64,000 nt of DNA from Salinibacterium amurskyense (GTDB taxonomy: Bacteria; Actinomycetota; Actinomycetes; Actinomycetales; Microbacteriaceae), in the NCBI RefSeq assembly GCF_002797685.1, contig NZ_PGFH01000001.1:186001-250000 (forward strand), written 5' to 3'. The position numbers and the translations under genes are program-made. The notes below the pieces were generated by a model, which ran no database searches, was not told the origin of the DNA, and saw only the letters and a list, made by a program, of their open reading frames with translations. Positions within the stretch are counted from its first letter, which is position 1. Every line of letters starts with the position of its first letter. Of this stretch, positions 54,101 through 64,000 are shown in pieces.

Positions 54101-55246
54101 CTACCTCAACAACAGGTTGGGCTGGAGAAGGTACTTGTAGTTGTCGCTGCCCGGCTGGTCTTTTGACGATTGGCTAGTGATCAACACGGGGCCTGGCTTG
54201 TTCGGGTTTTCCGTCTTGGTAAACGAAATGCGCACGAACTCGGAGTGCACGGAACTCAATCCATCGATGAGGAACTGTGGCTTCAGCGAAACCACAGTGT
54301 CGTCACCGGTCAAGAACGCATCGATGGTCTCGGATGCCTGAGCCTGCTCAGATCCGATCGCCTCAAGAGTGACTCCCTCTTCGGTGAATGTGAAGCGCAA
54401 TGCGGCTTCGCGTTCGAGCACCAGAGAGACACGACGAACAGCTTCGATCAACTCTCCCGTGTTCATGACTGCGAAGTTATCCACAGTCTCGGGAAAAAGT
54501 CGGCGAACCGGTGGAAAATTGCCCTTGATGAGCAACGACGTCACAGTTTTCTTGTCCGCTTGGAAGGCGATGAGCTCGCGCTCATCGGTGCTCGTGATGG
54601 CCACGGAAATTTCTCCGCTGTTCCCGAAGGTCTTTCCGACTTCCATCAGCGTCTTCGCCGGCACGAGAGCGGTCGCGGTTTCAACACCCGAGGCGCCGGC
54701 ATCCCATTCGATGTCGCGAACGGCAACGCGGTAGCGGTCAGTGGCGACGAGCGAAATGTTGTTTTCAGAAACTTCGAGCTGCACACCGGTGATGACCGGA
54801 GTGACATCGTCACGCGAAGCCGCAACGGCGACCTGCGAAATGGCGGCCGAGAACAGATCCGCTTTCAGAGTTCCCACCTTGTCGGAAATCTGGGGAAGGC
54901 TTGGATACTCCTCGACGGGCATGCTCGACAATGTGAAATGACCGGTGCCACAGGCAACGATGATCTTGTTCTCTTCAGTGCTAAAACGCACGGGAGCATT
55001 GGGAAGTCGGCTTGCAATGTCGGCGAGAAGCTTGCCCGAAACGAGGATGCGACCAGGCTCTTCAACCTCAGCAACGATCTGAGTGCGAGCCGAAACCTCG
55101 TAGTCAAATGACGACAGTGTCAGACCCTCATCGGTGGCTTCAATCAAGACTCCACTCAAAATGGGCAGCGTTGTGCGCTGCGGCAGCAGTTTGACCGCAA
55201 ACGAAACCGCCTCGCTGAAGACGTCACGATTGACCTGAAACTTCAT
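54101..55246 (-). CDS. dnaN: DNA polymerase III beta subunit (sliding clamp)
   Basis: 381 residues with the three-domain beta clamp pattern: MKFQVNRDVFSEAVSFAVKLLPQRTTLPILSGVLIEA at the N-terminus, middle-domain PVITGVQLE and VATDRYRVAVRDI, and the C-terminal part ending PNLLLR-like. It forms a ring on DNA that tethers polymerases and in this group also stimulates NucS. The start ATG has AGGGG upstream. The ORF follows the putative oriC. Confidence 0.97.
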   Translation of the reverse strand: MKFQVNRDVFSEAVSFAVKLLPQRTTLPILSGVLIEATDEGLTLSSFDYEVSARTQIVAEVEEPGRILVSGKLLADIASRLPNAPVRFSTEENKIIVACGTGHFTLSSMPVEEYPSLPQISDKVGTLKADLFSAAISQVAVAASRDDVTPVITGVQLEVSENNISLVATDRYRVAVRDIEWDAGASGVETATALVPAKTLMEVGKTFGNSGEISVAITSTDERELIAFQADKKTVTSLLIKGNFPPVRRLFPETVDNFAVMNTGELIEAVRRVSLVLEREAALRFTFTEEGVTLEAIGSEQAQASETIDAFLTGDDTVVSLKPQFLIDGLSSVHSEFVRISFTKTENPNKPGPVLITSQSSKDQPGSDNYKYLLQPNLLLR

Positions 55247-55572
55247 GAACTACCCCTAACCGGATCACGCTCTGGCCGTTAATACTGGCACAGCCGATCC
55301 ACTTGCGAACTACAGGTTATTTGGGATTCAAATTTCATTCTTTAAAGGTCACACTCTTAACCGCTGTGGATTGTGTGTATAACTCGTCGAAATTCTTGTA
55401 ATTGCTGGAAACTACATCCGTGTGACTTGTTGACGAGCCGTGGAGAACAGTCGCACTCTCCGTGGAAACTCGAGTTACAAGAATTTCCAATTCCACAGAA
55501 AGATTCTTGTGATCAACAATCTTTCCGGCGAGTTGGAGAGGTTATCCCCAAGTTATCCCCAAGTGGGAAAAC
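55247..55572. other. oriC: dnaA-dnaN intergenic region, putative oriC
   Basis: 326 bases without genes. DnaA-box-like 9-mers: TGTGGATTG (55365-55373, two mismatches), TGTGTATAA (55374-55382, reverse of TTATACACA), and two direct copies of TTATCCCCA (55542-55550 and 55553-55561) exactly 11 bp apart. An AT-rich segment (about 55312-55350) could be the unwinding element. This interval is the usual origin position in actinobacteria. The boxes are weaker than those upstream of dnaA, so a two-part origin is possible. Confidence 0.75.
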
Positions 55573-56991
55573 CTACTTTTGAGTGAATCGGTGGTTTTGT
55601 TTGATGCGACTGGTCAGTTCAGTGACCTGGTTATAGATCGAACGACGCTCTTTCATTAGCTCCGTGATCTTCTTATTCGCGTACATCACGGTGGTGTGGT
55701 CCCGGTTGCCGAAGAGCTGACCGATCTTCGGCAGCGACAGATTCGTCATTTCACGGCAGAGATACATTGCGATCTGCCGAGCAGTTGCTACCGCCTGGGA
55801 ACGGGAAGACCCGTAGAGGTCGTCGACCGTGAGCTTGAAGTAGTCGGCAGTGTGATTAATGATGTCGACCGGTGCGATGACGTTGTCTTCATCCAGAGTG
55901 ATGAGATCCTTCAGCACTGTTTGAACCAGTGCCATATCTACCTCGGTGCGATTGAGGCTCGCAAAAGCGGTAACGCGGATTAGCGTGCCTTCGAGCTCGC
56001 GGATGTTCGACGACACCTTCGACGCCATGAACTCCAGGATGTCGTTGCCCACTTGCATCTTCTCGCTCTGCGCTTTCTTGCGAAGAATGGCGATGCGCGT
56101 CTCGAGATCAGGCGCCTGCACGTCGGTAATCAGACCCCACTCGAAGCGTGACCGCATCCGGTCTTCGAAACCGGTGAGGTGCTTCGGAGGTAGGTCGCTC
56201 GTGATGACCACTTGCTTGTTGTGGTCGTGAAGAGTGTTGAAGGTGTGGAAGAACGCCTCTTGAGTGGAGTCCTTGCCCTGCAAGAACTGGATGTCATCGA
56301 TGAGCAGAATGTCGATCTCGCGATAGCGCGACTGAAATACCGAGGCGCGGTTGTTAGCGATCGAGTTGATGAAGTCGTTCGTGAATTCTTCTGAACTCAC
56401 ATAGCGAACACGGATCCCGGGATAGAGGCTCTCGGCGTAGTGGCCGATTGCGTGCAAGAGGTGAGTTTTACCGAGACCCGATCCTCCATAGATGAAGAGC
56501 GGGTTGTAAGCCTTGGCGGGAGCTTCGGCTACGGCAACTGCTGCAGCATGGGCGAACCGGTTTGAGCCACCGATAACGAAGTTGTCGAAGCTGTATTTGG
56601 GGTTGAGCCGTGAGTCACTGCGGCGAGGGGAGGACGCTTTTTCCACGGGAGCCGGAGGAGTGGGCTCAATGTAGGGCTGCTCGGTATGAGGAAGATCCTG
56701 GGAAAGGGCATCCTGTTGGATCTCTGGATTCACGACTGTCGCAAAGTTGGTGACCCCGTGCGAATCGTCGAGGGCAGCGATTGCATCAATGAAGGGTTGT
56801 CGGAGTCGCTGTTCCAGCATGCCGCGGGTGAGTTCATTCGGAACCTCGAGATAGAGGGTTCCAGCCATCACACCTTTAGGTTCAACCAGATTCACGAAGC
56901 CCTGCAATTGCGGGGTAATTCGCTCGTCTCCGTTGAGGTGCGTCAGAACTACTTGCCATAGTCCCTTAGTCGGGTCGGGTGTTTCCGACAT
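55573..56991 (-). CDS. dnaA: Chromosomal replication initiator DnaA
   Basis: 472 residues. Domain I about 1-85, a proline-rich linker to 130, then AAA+ domain III with Walker A GGSGLGKT (169-176), Walker B LLIDDIQFL and sensor motifs, and domain IV with the DNA-binding signature LFGNRDHTTVMYA. It opens oriC and binds DnaA boxes. Five candidate boxes upstream (57028-57168) suggest autoregulation. It is divergent from rpmH. Confidence 0.98.
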   Translation of the reverse strand: MSETPDPTKGLWQVVLTHLNGDERITPQLQGFVNLVEPKGVMAGTLYLEVPNELTRGMLEQRLRQPFIDAIAALDDSHGVTNFATVVNPEIQQDALSQDLPHTEQPYIEPTPPAPVEKASSPRRSDSRLNPKYSFDNFVIGGSNRFAHAAAVAVAEAPAKAYNPLFIYGGSGLGKTHLLHAIGHYAESLYPGIRVRYVSSEEFTNDFINSIANNRASVFQSRYREIDILLIDDIQFLQGKDSTQEAFFHTFNTLHDHNKQVVITSDLPPKHLTGFEDRMRSRFEWGLITDVQAPDLETRIAILRKKAQSEKMQVGNDILEFMASKVSSNIRELEGTLIRVTAFASLNRTEVDMALVQTVLKDLITLDEDNVIAPVDIINHTADYFKLTVDDLYGSSRSQAVATARQIAMYLCREMTNLSLPKIGQLFGNRDHTTVMYANKKITELMKERRSIYNQVTELTSRIKQNHRFTQK

Positions 56992-57027
56992 TCTTTTCCC
57001 ATCCCTCTGCAGTAATTACTCACAGGC

Positions 57028-57168
57028 TTATCCACTGGTGAGTACAGCTATTCTCGCTGAAATACTGTGATCTTTTGGCCGTTATGCACCGATAGTCACC
57101 TTAGTTGTCCACAGCATGTCGTTACCAATACCGATGTATTCTGTGTGGATAATGCGGCGTTGTTCACA
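57028..57168. promoter_or_regulatory. DnaA-box cluster upstream of dnaA
   Basis: Within 141 bases: TTATCCACT (57028-57036), TTATGCACC (57082-57090), TTGTCCACA (57105-57113), TGTGGATAA (57144-57152, perfect TTATCCACA on the minus strand) and TTGTTCACA (57160-57168). They cover the dnaA promoter region and end just before the rpmH promoter. Probable sites for dnaA autoregulation and possibly part of the replication origin. Confidence 0.75.
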
Positions 57169-57175
57169 TTGCGGT

Positions 57176-57204
57176 TTGACCGCATCCGTTTAACGCCGTA
57201 GTTT
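57176..57204 (+). promoter_or_regulatory. Predicted housekeeping promoter for the rpmH operon
   Basis: TTGACC (57176-57181), a 17-base spacer and TAGTTT (57199-57204), about 75 bases before rpmH. A second TTGACT follows at 57212-57217 with a poorer -10. Prediction by pattern only. Confidence 0.5.
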
Positions 57205-57278
57205 TAATCAGTTGACTTCCGGCCTTAGGGCCTACCAATTCTTCCCGGCTGCTAGAGCTGGGCCTTGGAGATATAGCT

Positions 57279-57416
57279 ATGAGCAAGAGAACTTTTCAGC
57301 CGAACAACCGTCGCCGCGCGAAGGTTCACGGTTTCCGCCTTCGCATGCGTACCCGTGCCGGCCGCGCGATCTTGAGCGCGCGTCGTCGTAAGGGACGCAC
57401 CGAACTCTCCGCGTAA
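57279..57416 (+). CDS. rpmH: 50S ribosomal protein L34
   Basis: 45 residues, [19 protein letters not shown] at the start, then [11 protein letters not shown] and [11 protein letters not shown]. Full match to bacterial L34, very rich in arginine. TTGGAG lies 8 bases before the ATG. It heads the rpmH-rnpA-yidD-yidC-jag-rsmG series in the opposite direction to dnaA. Confidence 0.98.
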
Positions 57417-57425
57417 TCTCGTCCG

Positions 57426-57767
57426 GTGCTGTCTAAGGCGAACCGCGTCGCGTTACCAAGCGATTTTCGTTTGGCTGTTCGTCGGGGTCGCCGTTTTACA
57501 GCACCGCACTGCGTTGTCCACATTGTGAACAACGAGAGGTCTCAGGGCGTGCGCTTTGGATTCATTGTTTCCAAGGCAGTAGGCAACGCGGTTGTACGTA
57601 ACCGGGTTCGTCGTCGACTCCGGGCGGCGGCAGCTCAGTTGCTCCCGGATGTGCACGCGAATGCGGATATCGTTGTTCGGGCTCTGGCAGGTTCCGCGCA
57701 AGCGGAGTGGACTACGCTACAGGCTGAGATCTCAGAAGGGATTGACCGCATCGTGGTGAAGGTATGA
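57426..57767 (+). CDS. rnpA: Ribonuclease P protein component
   Basis: 113 residues with a GTG start 9 bases after rpmH. RFGFIVSKAVGNAVVRNRVRRRLR is the RNR motif that binds the P RNA. It joins the RNA subunit to process tRNA 5' ends. Overlaps yidD by 4 bases. Confidence 0.96.
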   Translation: MLSKANRVALPSDFRLAVRRGRRFTAPHCVVHIVNNERSQGVRFGFIVSKAVGNAVVRNRVRRRLRAAAAQLLPDVHANADIVVRALAGSAQAEWTTLQAEISEGIDRIVVKV

Positions 57768-58075
57768 ACGCCGTCGTTACGTTCGCGCTGCTCATTCCGC
57801 GAAACCTCTGTGTGTTTATCCTGCGCATTTATCGTGCAGTAATTTCTCCGCTGTATGGAGATGTTTGCCGGTATTACCCGTCGTGCTCTCACTACACTCT
57901 TCAAGCTATTCAGCAGCACGGTGTTATCCGTGGTGTGTGGCTTGGCTCTCGTCGACTCCTTCGCTGCCACCCTTGGGCAGAGGGCGGTATCGATGACATC
58001 CCGGCTCGCCGGCATGACCGCTACCAGATCACCCGGTTCGGCTTTGTTATAGCCGCAAGCCACGAAAGGGGCTAA
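57764..58075 (+). CDS. yidD: Membrane protein insertion efficiency factor YidD
   Basis: 103 residues. The motif YRAVISPLYGDVCRYYPSCSHYTLQAIQQHG followed by GSRRLLRCHPWAEGG is diagnostic of YidD, including its conserved cysteines. It supports YidC-dependent insertion at the inner face of the membrane. ATGA overlap with rnpA; yidC follows after 7 bases. Confidence 0.96.
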   Translation: MNAVVTFALLIPRNLCVFILRIYRAVISPLYGDVCRYYPSCSHYTLQAIQQHGVIRGVWLGSRRLLRCHPWAEGGIDDIPARRHDRYQITRFGFVIAASHERG

Positions 58076-58082
58076 CCACTTC

Positions 58083-59060
58083 ATGGATCTTTTTGCTTTC
58101 TTTGGCAATCTGCTTTGGCCAATCAAGTGGGTAATCGAGGCAATCCTCGTCGCCTTTCACGAAATCCTTACCTTCTTCGGTATGGATGCGGATGCTGGCC
58201 TGACCTGGGTTCTTTCGATCGTCGGCCTCGTCCTCGTTGTGCGCGCAGCCTTGATTCCAGTCTTCGTGCGCCAGATCAAGAGCCAGCGTCGCATGATGGA
58301 AGTCGCGCCTCAGCTCAAGAAGATCCAGGACAAGTACAAGGGCAAGAAAGATCAGTTCTCTCGTGAGGCAATGTCTCGCGAAACGATGGCGATGTACAAG
58401 AACGCGGGTACCAACCCGTTTAGTTCCTGCCTTCCTCTTCTTCTGCAGATGCCGATCTTCTTCGGTCTCTTTTCAGTACTGCGTAACGCACAGCTCGAGG
58501 GAAATGCCCCGGGTGTTGGACTCCTCAACGCCGAGCTCTCAGAATCCTTCGGTACCTCGTCGCTGTTTGACATCGCTCCCCTGCACCTCGCGATCAGCAC
58601 GGCAGAGGGCAACGTAGCGGTCATCATTACTGCGGTCATCATGGTCATCCTGATGACTGGATCGCAGTTCATCACGCAACTTCAGATCATGTCGAAGAAT
58701 CAGTCGGCAGAGATGAAGGCTAGCCCCATGTACCGCCAGCAGCGGATCATGTTGTACCTACTCCCCCTCGTCTTCGCCTTCTCGGGATTCACGTTCCCAC
58801 TTGGCGTGATGTTCTACTGGCTGGTGTCGAACTTCTGGACCATGGGTCAGCAGTTCCTCGTTATTCGCAACATGCCCACCCCTGGCAGTGAAGCAGCACT
58901 CGCTCGAGAAGCGCGCCTTGCTAAGCGCAACCAGCGCAAGGGCATCGTCGAAGAAACTCCCGATGCCGGCACGATCGTGATCGAAGAACCTAAGAACCCG
59001 CAGCGGGAACAACCCGTTAGCAAAAACCGTGCGAAGAAGAAGCAGGGAAAGAAGAAATGA
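58083..59060 (+). CDS. yidC: Membrane protein insertase YidC
   Basis: 325 residues, the Oxa1-type with five membrane segments and no large external domain. NPFSSCLPLLLQMPIFFGLFSVLR and IMLYLLPLVFAFSGFTFPLGVMFYWLVSNFWTMGQQ are family blocks. The C-terminus is lysine-rich and may contact the ribosome. It inserts membrane proteins alone or with SecYEG. Overlaps jag by 4 bases. Confidence 0.95.
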   Translation: MDLFAFFGNLLWPIKWVIEAILVAFHEILTFFGMDADAGLTWVLSIVGLVLVVRAALIPVFVRQIKSQRRMMEVAPQLKKIQDKYKGKKDQFSREAMSRETMAMYKNAGTNPFSSCLPLLLQMPIFFGLFSVLRNAQLEGNAPGVGLLNAELSESFGTSSLFDIAPLHLAISTAEGNVAVIITAVIMVILMTGSQFITQLQIMSKNQSAEMKASPMYRQQRIMLYLLPLVFAFSGFTFPLGVMFYWLVSNFWTMGQQFLVIRNMPTPGSEAALAREARLAKRNQRKGIVEETPDAGTIVIEEPKNPQREQPVSKNRAKKKQGKKK

Positions 59061-59587
59061 CGAACGTTTCTGACACCGAGACCACCGCTGTCGAGTCCGC
59101 TCCCGTGGACGATCGCGAAGACCGTACTACCGCGCAACTCGAAGAAGAGGGCGATATTGCGGCTGACTACATCGAGGAGCTGCTCGATATTGCAGACCTC
59201 GATGGCGACATCGAGATCGATGCGCGGGCCGGTCGCTCCTATGTATCGGTAACGTCGAGCGAAGACACTAACCTTCGTCTGCTTTCCAAGCCTGACACTG
59301 TCACAGCACTTCAGGAGCTCACCCGAATTGCGGTTCAGAACAAGACCGGAGCGTTCTCGCGTCTCATTTTGGACATCGGTGGCTCGCGTGAAGCTCGTGC
59401 TGCGGAACTCTCGAAGCTTGTCGATGCGGCAGTTGCGCGCATCGAAGCGGGATCTGATTCTGCCGCACTCCCCCCGATGTCATCGTACGAGCGCAAGCTC
59501 GTTCACGATGTTGTGGCTGAGCGCGGTTTCGTGTCGCAGTCCAGCGGTGAAGGCCGCGACCGTCACACCGTCATTACTCGTTCATAG
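59057..59587 (+). CDS. jag: Jag/KhpB-like protein with degenerate KH domain and R3H domain
   Basis: 176 residues. An acidic N-terminus leads to the KH region (EIDARAGRSYVSVTSSEDTNLRLLSKPDTVTALQELTRIAV), in which the GxxG RNA-binding loop normally seen before the ALQ helix reads SKPD. The R3H domain follows with PPMSSYERKLVHDVVAERG and SSGEGRDRHTVI. The family is RNA-binding and linked to cell elongation. Loss of the GxxG loop suggests altered RNA contact by the KH part. The parS site begins within its stop region. Confidence 0.9.
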   Translation: MTNVSDTETTAVESAPVDDREDRTTAQLEEEGDIAADYIEELLDIADLDGDIEIDARAGRSYVSVTSSEDTNLRLLSKPDTVTALQELTRIAVQNKTGAFSRLILDIGGSREARAAELSKLVDAAVARIEAGSDSAALPPMSSYERKLVHDVVAERGFVSQSSGEGRDRHTVITRS

Positions 59588-59601
59588 TTTCACGTGAAAC
59601 A
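59586..59601. other. parS: parS site 1
   Basis: AGTTTCACGTGAAACA, one base off the 16-bp parS consensus TGTTTCACGTGAAACA and containing the perfect 14-bp palindrome. It covers the jag stop and touches the rsmG start. ParB encoded nearby should load CTP-dependent clamps here. Confidence 0.93.
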
Positions 59602-60237
59602 TTGACCGACGGAGTAGTGCTCGAACAAGAGCCTGAGATTGCGGCTGAGCTATTTGGCTCGCGTATTGACCTGGCGCGCGCGTACACCGAGAGCTTGGCT
59701 CTTCGAGGTGAAGAGCTTGGTCTTATCGGTCCCCTAGAGGTTCCCCGTCTGTGGTCGCGTCATATTGTGAATTGCGTGCTTGTCGCTCCCCTGCTTCGAC
59801 CGGGGCTCGTTGGTGACATTGGCAGTGGCGCGGGTCTTCCTGGTCTAGTTCTAGCAATCGCTCGCCCCGATGTGAACTTCGTTCTTATCGAACCCATGGA
59901 ACGCCGAGTTGACTGGCTCAATGCTGAAGTTGATCGCCTCGGGTTGTCGAATGTCGTTGTCGACCGCTCTCGTTCACAGGATGCTCCTTATGCTGAGGCT
60001 CTCACGCAGATCACTGCGCGTGCTGTCACTGCGCTTTCTAAGTTGATCCCCTCCACAGAGCACCTCCTTGCCCCCGGCGGCGAGATGGTGTTTATGAAGG
60101 GTGCGCGCATCGATGAAGAGATAGAGGCCGCTGCGAAGGTCATTCGCAAGGCCCGCCTCAAGGATGTGGAGTCTCTCGTTCTAGGTGAAGGCATCACGCC
60201 GGAGATCACAAGGGTCTTTCGGGCTAGAGTGGACTAA
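59602..60237 (+). CDS. rsmG: 16S rRNA (guanine527-N7)-methyltransferase RsmG
   Basis: 211 residues. The TTG start directly follows parS site 1; a GTG at 59617 is an alternative and neither has a good ribosome site. The SAM-binding motif DIGSGAGLPGLVLAIARPD and the block RAVTALSKLIPSTEHLLAPGGEMVFMKG identify RsmG. It methylates G527 of 16S rRNA; loss gives low-level streptomycin resistance in other bacteria. Confidence 0.93.
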   Translation: MTDGVVLEQEPEIAAELFGSRIDLARAYTESLALRGEELGLIGPLEVPRLWSRHIVNCVLVAPLLRPGLVGDIGSGAGLPGLVLAIARPDVNFVLIEPMERRVDWLNAEVDRLGLSNVVVDRSRSQDAPYAEALTQITARAVTALSKLIPSTEHLLAPGGEMVFMKGARIDEEIEAAAKVIRKARLKDVESLVLGEGITPEITRVFRARVD

Positions 60238-60295
60238 TTCGGCAGTCACTATCGCCGCTACCAGTCTTCCCCGTTTTTACAGCAGTCTGAGAGAA

Positions 60296-60311
60296 AGTTT
60301 CACGTGAAACA
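60296..60311. other. parS: parS site 2, overlapping the parA start codon
   Basis: AGTTTCACGTGAAACA, same form as site 1. The GTG start of parA (60304) is the central GTG of the palindrome, so ParB bound here could block parA translation initiation sites in DNA or transcription. Confidence 0.93.
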
Positions 60312-61221
60312 TCCCGAAAGCGAAGTCAACGAACAAGGTAAGTCGTTCGATGAAACCACGCCGCTTGCGCGGGAGATTGCGGATCTCACTCGTCGTCGAC
60401 AGGCTGTTGCATCAGCCTCCCTACCCCTTCCCTCTTCGCCACGCGTTTTCACGGTTGCTAACCAAAAGGGCGGGGTTGGAAAGACCACATCCACGGTTAA
60501 CTTGGCTGCTGCTCTTGCACGCACAGGTGCCCGCGTTCTTGTGATCGATCTCGATCCTCAGGGAAATGCGTCCACTGCCGTGGGTGTCGAGCATCGTTCG
60601 GAGACGTCAAGCGTCTACGACGTCATGATCAACGACGTGCCGATGGCAGATGTCGTACAGAAGAGTCCTGAATTCGACGCACTGTACTGCGTGCCGGCTA
60701 CGATCCACCTGGCTGGTGCCGAGATCGAGCTCGTTTCTCTCGTTGCCCGCGAACAACGGCTTCGCTCAGCGCTCGATACGTTCCTTTCGGAGACTCCCGA
60801 GCCGTTCCATTATGTCTTCATCGACTGCCCGCCGTCACTGGGCCTTCTCACCATCAACGCTTTCGTTGCGGCTCAAGAAGTTCTCATTCCAATTCAGTGC
60901 GAGTACTACGCGCTTGAGGGTCTGAGTCAACTTCTCAACAACATCAAACTGATCGAGCGTCATCTGAACCCGCGACTGCGAGTGTCCACGATCTTAATGA
61001 CCATGTACGACTCTCGCACTAATCTTGCTAATCAGGTGGTCGATGATGTGCGTGCTCACTTCCCCAAGCAGGTGCTGACTACTCTCATCCCCCGCTCGGT
61101 TCGGATTTCTGAGGCACCTAGCTACGGCCAGAGTGTGATCAGCTACGACCAGAACTCCCCTGGATCGCTTTCCTATCTTGAAGCGGCAGCGGAGATCGCA
61201 CATCGAGGAGCACCCAAATAA
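60304..61221 (+). CDS. parA: Chromosome-partitioning ATPase ParA (Soj)
   Basis: 305 residues. The deviant Walker A QKGGVGKTT near residue 55, FIDCPPSLGLLTINA and QCEYYALEGLSQLL are family signatures. The first ~45 residues are a polar extension. The only plausible start is GTG 60304 inside parS site 2; no other in-frame start occurs before the conserved domain. ParA binds DNA non-specifically and moves ParB-parS complexes. Its stop overlaps the parB start by one base (TAATG). Confidence 0.95.
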   Translation: MKHPESEVNEQGKSFDETTPLAREIADLTRRRQAVASASLPLPSSPRVFTVANQKGGVGKTTSTVNLAAALARTGARVLVIDLDPQGNASTAVGVEHRSETSSVYDVMINDVPMADVVQKSPEFDALYCVPATIHLAGAEIELVSLVAREQRLRSALDTFLSETPEPFHYVFIDCPPSLGLLTINAFVAAQEVLIPIQCEYYALEGLSQLLNNIKLIERHLNPRLRVSTILMTMYDSRTNLANQVVDDVRAHFPKQVLTTLIPRSVRISEAPSYGQSVISYDQNSPGSLSYLEAAAEIAHRGAPK

Positions 61222-62171
61222 TGGCAGCACCAAAACGAACTGGTTTGGGTCGGGGAATTGGCGCGCTGATTCCCTCCGCGGATGAGAACCAAGAGCGTCC
61301 TGTCGACGTATTCTTTCCCGGCGGCGAGATCGCTCCCGAGCGGCTGCGCTCCGTTCCGGGTGCGCGCCTCGCGAGCCTGTCCCCTCTCGACATCGTTCCC
61401 AACTCGCGTCAACCGCGTAGTGAGTTCCGTCAGGAAGAGCTAGAGGAACTGATTGTTTCCATCCGCGAGATCGGTGTTCTTCAGCCGATCGTGGTTCGCC
61501 CTCTTGTCGGTGCGGTCGAAGGTGGGCCGCAGTATGAACTGATCATGGGTGAACGTCGCCTTCGCGCGACCAAGCACCTCGGGCTTGCAAGCATTCCGGC
61601 TGTCATCAAGAGCACTGCTGATGAAGACATGCTTCGCGACGCTCTTCTCGAGAACCTCCACCGCGCTAACCTGAATCCTTTGGAAGAAGCATCCGCCTAC
61701 CAGCAGCTTCTCGCCGATTTTGGGATCACCCAGGAACAGCTTGCGGAGCGAATTGGCCGTTCTCGCCCGCAAATTACGAACACAATGCGTCTTTTGCGCC
61801 TTCCAGAAAGCGTTCAGCGCCGAGTAGCGGCTGGAGTTCTCACCGCAGGACACGCTCGAGCGCTCCTATCGCTTCCTGACAGCGCCGGAATGGAGCGTTT
61901 GGCGGAGAAAATCGTCAATGAAGAGCTCTCCGTGCGCGCAGCCGAAGCCGCGGCAGGATCGCTTTCAACCAAGCCCCCTCGCGCTAAGCCGTCACGCGGC
62001 AAGAAGCAGGGCCATCTCGATGAGATTGCTGAGCGCTTAGGCGACCGACTGAACACCCGGGTGAAAGTAACCCTCGGAGCCAGTAAGGGCCAAGTCGTCA
62101 TCGACTTCGCTACCGTGGCTGACCTCAACCGCATCCTCGAAGAACTGGGCGACACGGGCTTCAGCTCCTAG
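61221..62171 (+). CDS. parB: Chromosome-partitioning protein ParB
   Basis: 316 residues. N-terminal ParA-interacting GLGRGIGALIP, the CTP-binding core with SPLDIVPNSRQPRSEF, LQPIVVRP and GERRLRATKHLGL, then the helix-turn-helix GITQEQLAERIGRSRPQITNTMRLLRLP that reads parS, and a C-terminal dimerisation domain. A CTPase clamp that spreads from parS. Four parS sites lie within about 3.3 kb. Confidence 0.96.
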   Translation: MAAPKRTGLGRGIGALIPSADENQERPVDVFFPGGEIAPERLRSVPGARLASLSPLDIVPNSRQPRSEFRQEELEELIVSIREIGVLQPIVVRPLVGAVEGGPQYELIMGERRLRATKHLGLASIPAVIKSTADEDMLRDALLENLHRANLNPLEEASAYQQLLADFGITQEQLAERIGRSRPQITNTMRLLRLPESVQRRVAAGVLTAGHARALLSLPDSAGMERLAEKIVNEELSVRAAEAAAGSLSTKPPRAKPSRGKKQGHLDEIAERLGDRLNTRVKVTLGASKGQVVIDFATVADLNRILEELGDTGFSS

Positions 62172-62623
62172 AGAGCATTCAGGACCACTCCCCCGTGGGA
62201 GTGCGTTAGCTAAGTGCACTGCTGTCCAGGATGGCGGTGAGCCGTGGGGCGAGGAATGCGTGCGGTCTGCGGATTGTGATCGCAGCGAACCTTAGCGCCA
62301 GCACGAGAAACGGTGAACGCACGGCTTACGCGCGACTCAAAGCCTCGCTCCCTGTATTGGTAGATGGGTCTCGTCGTGGCAGCCACGTTGAACGCCCCGG
62401 CAATCTGTGTCGTGGGATTTCGTCGACCTGGATGTCACTGAGAGAGTCGCGGCTGACTCCCCGGGCTCAGTGGTTGGCACCGCTTGTATTTGCACAGGCG
62501 CTCGCACTGGTAGACGGCAGGCGGCAGCCGGCACTTTCACTGGCAGCTGGGAGCGACCGCTCGCGGTTGGTTGTGTGGAATGTCGAGCATGCGCCTGTCT
62601 GCAAACGAGGTTTGCATCGAGCA

Positions 62624-62639
62624 TGTTTCACGTGAAACT
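62624..62639. other. parS: parS site 3
   Basis: TGTTTCACGTGAAACT, one base off consensus, ending two bases before the heptamer array. Confidence 0.93.
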
Positions 62640-62641
62640 TC

Positions 62642-62781
62642 GCTAGTCGCTAGTCGCTAGTCGCTAGTCGCTAGTCGCTAGTCGCTAGTCGCTAGTCGCT
62701 AGTCGCTAGTCGCTAGTCGCTAGTCGCGAGACGCGAGACGCGAGACGCGAGACGCGAGACGCGAGACGCGAGACGCGAGAC
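62642..62781. repeat. Tandem heptamer array, 12 x GCTAGTC + 8 x GCGAGAC
   Basis: Twenty uninterrupted 7-bp units: 62642-62725 is GCTAGTC twelve times, 62726-62781 is GCGAGAC eight times. The two unit types differ at positions 3 and 6 and each block is homogeneous. CTAG, generally rare in bacterial genomes, occurs twelve times. It starts two bases after parS site 3. ORFs through it would give artificial 7-residue repeats, so it is taken as non-coding. Confidence 0.97.
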
Positions 62782-62831
62782 GCGGCGCACTGAAGTCGGC
62801 GCGGCCGAGTGTGCGCAGGGTGTGCACTACC

Positions 62832-62909
62832 TGTGGATAACGGGGCCTCACCCTTGCTATGTTCCACGTGAAACATGGCATCTACCGCTGTGGATAGGCC
62901 TGTGTATAA
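62832..62909. promoter_or_regulatory. DnaA-box group near parS site 4
   Basis: TGTGGATAA (62832-62840, perfect box on the minus strand), TGTGGATAG (62889-62897, one mismatch) and TGTGTATAA (62901-62909, TTATACACA form). All point the same way and surround parS site 4. About 6 kb from the dnaA gene. Confidence 0.65.
62860..62875. other. parS: parS site 4
   Basis: TGTTCCACGTGAAACA, the TGTTCC variant common in Gram-positive parS sites, otherwise full match. Lies between DnaA boxes. Confidence 0.93.
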
Positions 62910-63003
62910 CAGCGCGCTAGCATGCGGACGAGTCTTCAACGAGGAGCGCCGCTGGAAGCCAACTCTGCAATGCTGCTTGCTCCGTGGGGCTTGCTGAGGT
63001 GCT

Positions 63004-63954
63004 CTAGTTCTCCATCGCGATGTCGGCAAGGGCAGCGTAAACCCAGCCGAGATCGTGGCCTGCCGCCACCAAAGCCTGCGGCAGAATCGAAGTTTCGGTG
63101 AGGCCGGGCAGCACGTTTGCCTCGAGAAACCAGGGCGTTCCGGCGCGATCCACGATGAGGTCTACGCGCGACAAGTGACGAAGTCCGAGAGCGGAATGTG
63201 CTGCGAGTGCTGCTTCAGCGGCGCGATCCGCGTGCTCCTGCGATATACGAGCCGGGGTGTAAAAGCGTGTCTGACCAGCGTTATACCGAGCCTCGAAAGT
63301 GTAGGCCCCTTCGACCGGATCGATCTCCACGGCGGGAAGCGCGACTGGACCCATTCCGCTGTCGAGGATGCCGATAGCGATCTCGACTCCGGTAATGCGT
63401 TGTTCGATGAGAGCTACGTCGCAATAGTTGTAAGCGTTGACCATGGCGCTCGGAAGATCGGCACGGTCCGTCACGATGGAAACGCCCTGCGCTGATCCAC
63501 CCTGCGCTGGCTTCACAACCAACTCCCCCGACAATTCATCGGCAAGCTCGTCCAAGATGCTGTGAGCACCCAGTTCGCGGAAGGAATCGCGAGACAAAGC
63601 GATCGACAATGGGGTGCGAACTCCAACACGAGAGACAAGCGACTTGGCGGTGGGCTTATCCCATGCCAAACGCGCTGCGTCCGCTCGCGATCCTACGTAG
63701 GGAATGCCGATCAGGTCGAGGAGTCCGCGCAGGGCGCCGTCTTCTCCACTTGCGCCGTGGAGTGCAGGCCAGACAACGTCCGGCTTAGCCTCACGCAGGT
63801 AGGGCAGCAACGACGCATCCGGGTCTCGGAGTTCGACGATCTTGCCTTGAGCGCGGAGGCCATCAGCGACACGGCGACCGGAACGCAGCGAAACGTCCCG
63901 TTCATGCGAGATTCCGCCAGCTAGAACGAGTACGCGGGTGGGTGAATCGTTCAT
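63004..63954 (-). CDS. ddl: D-alanine--D-alanine ligase
   Basis: 316 residues. N-terminal LVLAGGISHERDVSLRSG, HGASGEDGALRGLLDLIGIPYVGS, central VKPAQGGSAQGV and late EANVLPGLTE motifs define the ATP-grasp Ddl family, which makes D-Ala-D-Ala for peptidoglycan. The start ATG follows AGGA at 5-6 bases. It converges on parB across the repeat region and may be coupled to an upstream gene at the window edge. Confidence 0.92.
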   Translation of the reverse strand: MNDSPTRVLVLAGGISHERDVSLRSGRRVADGLRAQGKIVELRDPDASLLPYLREAKPDVVWPALHGASGEDGALRGLLDLIGIPYVGSRADAARLAWDKPTAKSLVSRVGVRTPLSIALSRDSFRELGAHSILDELADELSGELVVKPAQGGSAQGVSIVTDRADLPSAMVNAYNYCDVALIEQRITGVEIAIGILDSGMGPVALPAVEIDPVEGAYTFEARYNAGQTRFYTPARISQEHADRAAEAALAAHSALGLRHLSRVDLIVDRAGTPWFLEANVLPGLTETSILPQALVAAGHDLGWVYAALADIAMEN

Positions 63955-64000
63955 GATGTTCCTAGCTGAGGTTGGCTGGAGGGTTGATCATCGATGGCGC
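63951..64000 (-). CDS. Possible C-terminus of a gene upstream of ddl (partial)
   Basis: On the minus strand one frame stays open from the window edge and stops with TGA overlapping the ddl ATG (ATGA, 63951-63954), a coupling pattern used throughout this window; it would end PSSQPQLGTS. Another frame stops at TAG 63962-63964. Too short to identify. Confidence 0.3.
   Translation of the reverse strand, partial: AIDDQPSSQPQLGTS

Follow-up and report, generated by a model that had tools for sequence, protein, structure and literature searches.

Variable tandem arrays beside parS in the parB-ddl gap of Salinibacterium amurskyense and related Microbacteriaceae

The window analysed here, a stretch of 64,000 nucleotides from the genome of Salinibacterium amurskyense, carries a heptamer array in the gap between parB and ddl, directly beside a parS site. 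The array is real and non-random, and it is no conserved binding array. From the comparison of related genomes we consider it reasonably probable that the array is a snapshot of a hypervariable, satellite-like locus in the parS-bearing parB-ddl gap, driven by slippage. Sequence-specific protein binding is improbable, and any function would have to rest on length or on the low complexity of the DNA. A further and much more tentative reading would make the locus a bacterial counterpart of centromeric satellites, in which parS-loaded ParB would be a fork obstacle whose edge begets and resizes arrays of 6–8-bp units, the segregation centre thereby driving rapid change in the DNA beside it.

Structure and setting of the array

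The array is composed of two perfect blocks, and direct reading and Tandem Repeats Finder (TRF) return exactly the 12 GCTAGTC and 8 GCGAGAC units over 62642–62781 that an earlier sequence-only reading had reported. With partial units included, the period-7 runs extend over 62640–62727 (12.6 copies) for block A and 62725–62784 (8.6 copies) for block B; the first base of the periodic run, 62640, directly follows parS site 3. The period-7 run of block A is 88 bp long, versus at most 17 bp across 20 simulated windows (first-order Markov, 64 kb each), and a chance origin is excluded by these simulations. The window contains no further perfect array (period 4–14, at least 3 copies, at least 20 bp) and seven weaker tandem repeats of 1.9–2.3 copies (TRF). 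The CTAG richness pointed out earlier was also recovered, 12 of the 75 CTAG tetramers in the window lying inside the array, while CTAG outside it occurs about once per kb versus about 3.6 per kb expected from base composition. Exact GCTAGTCGCTAGTC is found once more in this genome outside the array. At a second GCTAGTC site in this genome (L039:4881–4894, G000:C1:495880), two units are followed by GCG as at the junction of blocks A and B.

Table 1 Features around the array (window positions)
Feature	Position	Strand	Remark
dnaA	55573–56991	−	
Likely oriC	56992–57425		Gap adjoining dnaA; DnaA boxes at 57105 and 57144
parS site 1	59586–59601		Directly before rsmG/gidB frame; no array alongside
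parS site 2	60296–60311		Overlaps listed start of parA-type frame; no array alongside
parA-type partition ATPase gene	60304–61221	+	ParA-superfamily models, all those shown below curated cut-offs
parB, 316 aa	61221–62171	+	TIGR00180, 183 bits, cut-off 58
Non-coding parB-ddl gap, 832 bp	62172–63003		Holds parS sites 3 and 4 and the array; parB and ddl convergent
parS site 3, TGTTTCACGTGAAACT	62624–62639		Array abuts directly
Array block A, 12 perfect GCTAGTC	62642–62725	+	Direct reading and TRF
Array block B, 8 perfect GCGAGAC	62726–62781	+	Direct reading and TRF
parS site 4, TGTTCCACGTGAAACA	62860–62875		parS 16-mer scan
ddl, D-alanine--D-alanine ligase	63004–63954	−	NF002378, 254.6 bits, cut-off 243

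The conserved parS sequence sets ParB binding. Scanning with what we take to be the parS 16-mer consensus, at most three mismatches being allowed, gave four parS-like sites in the window versus 0.34 expected, and these matches lie near parAB and oriC as a parS cluster does. To judge from dnaA, dnaN and three DnaA boxes (57105, 57144 and, just past the likely oriC gap, 57514), oriC probably lies near 57.0–57.5 kb, and forks would then move rightwards through parB to the array. The gene order in this direction is rsmG, the parA-type gene, parB and the convergent ddl. Around parS site 4 there are DnaA-box-like sites on the minus strand at 62832–62840 (TTATCCACA), 62889–62897 (CTATCCACA) and 62901–62909 (TTATACACA); the gaps of the other ten species of the clade defined below contain no such box except one TTGTCCACA in G012.

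Several other interpretations of the region were tried and rejected. A 107-aa frame across the array (62706–63029, minus strand) is a mechanical open reading frame only, positions 55000–64000 gave no Rfam match at gathering thresholds, and 61200–63960 gave no megablast match among plasmids. Between 62000 and 63200 one terminator-like site was found versus 0.8 in shuffled sequence, and no promoter-like site.

Recurrence and turnover among relatives

ParB and parS-like sites are present in all 27 genus genomes searched (one per species, G000 being this genome). Among named records, ParB is closest to those of Salinibacterium sp. SWN248, SWN167 and NG253 and of the marine actinobacterium PHSC20C1. 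We define as the clade the 11 species, G000 included, with ParB identity of at least 88%; in a midpoint-rooted tree these 11 genomes stand apart from the three distant genomes included, with support 100/100. The clade parB-ddl gaps carry one to five parS sites each, and their 8.7 kb of DNA contains 19 perfect arrays of period 6–7, distributed over 9 of the 11 species; no array is present in G004 or G025, although their gaps contain parS. Neither parS nor an array was found in the parB-ddl gap of the 16 more distant genus genomes. The array units differ in nearly all clade species, the TCGCTAG unit being common only to G000 and its sister species G007, and GTGCCTA- and CAGTACC-type units to the sisters G011 and G012. 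So it is the parB-ddl gap as a place, not the unit, that recurs across these sequences.

Between sister species the arrays differ strongly in copy number. In G007, TCGCTAG is repeated 6.6 times, immediately next to a parS of identical sequence, as compared to 12.6 copies in G000, and the G007 array was probably inherited together with that of G000. The GCGAGAC block is found in G000 only, being absent from G007, which for its part carries two hexamer blocks, not shared with G000, to the left of the array. The aligned gaps of this pair are 76.8% identical, and the two species are less close than G011 and G012, which have 96.9% identical parB and 87.5% identical aligned gap sequence. The G011/G012 gaps are separated by 12 indels, seven of which, of 6–42 bp, all fall in repeat tracts, the remaining five, of 1–5 bp, lying outside them; this pair thus shows copy number varying between close relatives with alignable flanks, as in VNTR loci. 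These differences fit the neutral hypervariable locus that the sequence-only reading had offered as one of its options.

Adjoining blocks of one period with an altered unit occur in 6 of the 9 array-bearing clade species (G000, G007, G010, G012, G014 and G005). Moreover, single-copy intermediates are present at block boundaries in G012 (CAGTACC-CAGCACC-AAGCACC) and G010 (TGGCGC-TGGCAA-CGGCAA). The stepwise boundaries and the side-by-side changed blocks support a course of events in which a unit at the edge mutates and a second expansion then starts from it, in keeping with the earlier suggestion of two separate expansions from one ancestor.

In the mechanism that we propose, a short chance duplication would expand through replication slippage, and a unit mutated at one end of the array would expand in turn to give the next homogeneous block. 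Slippage loops would persist because mismatch repair is of the NucS type, reported to be blind to indels, with no MutS. Indeed, the NucS family was matched in 27/27 genus genomes and MutS_V in 0/27, MutS_V being matched in 11 of 14 control genomes. A passage of PMC8228993 states that NucS cannot correct indels and that DnaE proofreading may suppress most short indels. Since NucS without MutS acts genome-wide and is also found in the 16 genus members that lack arrays, some local cause is required in addition. Hairpin-driven expansion was rejected as a general cause, as the mean fraction of permutations folding as well as the unit was 0.50 for 25 units. As single-stranded DNA, the 252 bases that cover the array and both parS sites do fold better than shuffled versions (z −3.47). 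As a weaker step of the proposal, ParB on parS may pause forks and so promote slippage at the parS edge.

Association with parS and alternative readings

The foremost alternative is ordinary neutral slippage, favoured by a convergent gap that is long, unconstrained and close to the origin; parS would merely share this gap and have no causal part. We regard it as possible, if rather unlikely. In its favour, a passage of PMC4692102 describes an excess of heptameric repeats in many bacterial genomes and puts forward polymerase slippage as a hypothesis. Other long gaps, however, are array-free. In a clade sample of 50 stretches, drawn from eight of the 11 genomes (999,000 bp, of which 97,461 bp are estimated to be intergenic), no perfect array of 6–7-bp units was found in 78 gaps of at least 300 bp, among them 20 convergent gaps, and none was found in 18 other gaps of at least 300 bp in the same clade par loci. 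Half of this sample is from G000, about 17% of which was sampled outside the window, and one of the sampled stretches, 20 kb long, is part of the window but does not touch the array. The sample plus L039 (1,009,001 bp) contains three perfect arrays of period 4–14, a 9-mer and a 6-mer array in estimated coding sequence and one intergenic 9-mer array of 3.2 copies, the genes being estimated by a greedy open reading frame rule and not by a gene caller, so that some array stretches are assigned to coding. Imperfect repeats (TRF score at least 40, period at most 30) are less one-sided, with 21 in 8,672 bp of clade gaps versus 27 in the intergenic part of the sample (97,461 bp).

The search for arrays between parB and ddl across Microbacteriaceae that the sequence-only reading had suggested found them in 20 of 170 gaps with a convergent ddl; these come from 188 distinct parB loci, the other 18 being excluded from gap counts. 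Arrays are present in 17 of the 88 parS-bearing parB-ddl gaps (29 arrays, 98.6 kb) and in three of the 82 parS-free ones (L067, L212 and L283; 6 arrays, 13.8 kb). Outside the clade, arrays occur in 8/77 parS-bearing parB-ddl gaps of any length and in 1/15 parS-free ones of at least 300 bp, with no clear difference between the two, in 1/34 other gaps with parS, and in 0/168 other parS-free gaps of at least 300 bp in par loci. In 80 named loci, 16 arrays lie in 61.8 kb of parB-ddl gaps, nine of them from the clade, versus four intergenic arrays in 107 kb elsewhere (shorter gaps and locus ends). The largest array, in the parB-ddl gap of Arenivirga flava (L070:12752–13042), has 36.4 perfect copies of the 8-mer CCCTGATG and ends 46 bp from parS. 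A wider search of 44 genomes gave 29 new loci, scanned for about 1.5 kb on each side of the ParB match, five of them without any parS in the scanned stretch; they contain one array, 3.4 kb from parS, and none of the 27 that come from the order but not from the family has an array near parS.

Three side observations belong to this survey. Long parB-ddl gaps with several parS are also seen in Curtobacterium, Leifsonia and Arenivirga (L073–L116 and others). The arrays of L212 and L283 are hexamer arrays, about half of the 102-bp gap of L212 being array. At L271:98–394 (parB turned forward), dense mixed 8–9-bp arrays (GTAGGGCT, GGTCTCGT and variants) lie upstream of parB, 348–608 bp from parS.

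The position of the arrays relative to parS also speaks against neutral slippage. Merging adjacent blocks gave 21 array loci in 17 parS-bearing gaps, 7 of which have a parS edge no more than 3 bp away versus 0.61 expected, a number reached in 0/20,000 shuffles, the 3-bp abutment being post hoc, as the pattern was noticed before its test. The seven are from G000, G007, G010, G023, two Curtobacterium and Microbacteriaceae bacterium PS02343. Without G007, 6/19 loci abut (1/50,000 shuffles), comprising 3/10 in the clade (126/50,000) and 3/9 in the rest of the family (55/50,000). The sequence-only reading had named absence or random placement in relatives as the finding that would count against it: nine of the 11 clade species do have arrays in this gap, and these lie against parS more often than chance placement would give, whereas the unit is not conserved and two of the species lack any array. 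In 107 later loci (L181–L287) none of the four array loci in parS-bearing gaps abuts parS, the distances being 20, 35, 95 and 205 bp, and thus exact abutment was not reproduced; in this set, the arrays of L256 and L272 lie upstream of parB, 15 and 28 bp from parS.

ParB on parS would be no more than a candidate cause of the arrays, given the arrays in some parS-free parB-ddl gaps and two lone parS-like sites without arrays, observations that favour neutral slippage. The lone sites, G007:C1:1840782 (L161) and G006:C2:668401 (L167), are located about 169 kb and 14 kb from parAB, and no perfect array (period 4–14) was found in the 19 kb around each. Also against a role of parS are parS sites 1 and 2, near parA/gidB and without an array, and the array-free gaps of G004 and G025. 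In favour of a ParB effect, a DNA-bound protein, dCas9, stalls forks in yeast and makes a tandem array unstable (PMC7826275); that array, however, mostly contracted, its instability involves Rad52 annealing, and its units are reportedly much longer. Nine array loci have a parS no more than 20 bp away, and eight of them lie on its ddl side, presumably origin-distal, which is not what a simple stall-before-barrier model would lead one to expect.

Selection for length offers a second alternative, in which the array would be a low-complexity, gene-free spacer with a sequence-independent role, serving ParB clamp sliding, SMC loading or the shielding of parS from parB/ddl read-through. We judge it improbable. 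Nine of the 11 clade gaps (671–1202 bp) exceed every parS-free gap of the 16 other genus genomes (42–521 bp), and arrays of differing units recur in the parS-bearing clade gaps. Nevertheless, clade gap length varies eightfold (146–1202 bp), the gaps of G023 (404 bp) and G025 (146 bp) are not longer than those of parS-free relatives, and the parS-bearing gaps of G004 and G025 are without an array.

A sequence-specific protein-binding array, acting as a ParB spreading barrier or an SMC loader as the sequence-only reading had proposed, is very improbable and went unsupported. It would suit the position directly at parS and the regular 7-bp spacing, by which three units span 21 bp, about two helical turns. 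However, the units lack conservation even among closely related species, and at least two consecutive TCGCTAG units occur in just 2 of 27 genus genomes; this lack of conservation argues against binding by sequence. Finally, although short-read assembly can mis-size perfect repeats, an assembly artefact is scarcely credible, since G007 has the same unit (GCTAGTC/TCGCTAG) in its own parB-ddl gap, next to a parS of the same kind; the G007 contig concerned is 2,995,446 bases long.

If the satellite-like reading of the locus is true, mutational hot spots where DNA turns over as in satellites can exist at the segregation sites of bacteria. These actinobacteria would then provide both a simple genetic system, in which parS is moved and repeats are counted, for asking why centromere-side DNA evolves fast and a variable typing locus.

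Relation to known systems

No open-licence PMC literature joining parS, tandem repeats and Microbacteriaceae was found, and among the matches listed from open-licence PMC papers no title or abstract start dealt with tandem arrays at chromosomal parS. In ParABS systems, parS clusters near oriC, and here too parS lies beside parAB near the likely origin; the difference is the extra parS in the parB-ddl gap, accompanied by variable arrays. VNTR and minisatellite loci share copy-number change and block-wise homogenised unit variants with the arrays, but here the locus, not the unit, recurs across species. Eukaryotic centromeric satellites, by analogy, are likewise fast-evolving, unconserved tandem repeats beside a segregation site, whereas the arrays here measure only about 20–290 bp and are absent in some species.

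The closest likeness is to bacterial heptameric simple sequence repeats (SSRs), such as Xanthomonas GGGAATC and Nostoc GGGGA(T/C)T, which a passage of PMC4692102 describes as intergenic 7-bp arrays varying in length and sequence among close relatives, with slippage proposed; the array of S. amurskyense is likewise a perfect intergenic tandem of 7-bp units. In the SSRs described there, one unit type occupies many sites, which the GCTAGTC array does not, the units here varying by species within one gap beside parS. The array is therefore of a known kind, that of the bacterial heptamer repeats in this passage of PMC4692102, and what appears to be new, within the literature searched, is that arrays with ever-changing units are concentrated in the parB-ddl gap where it bears parS.
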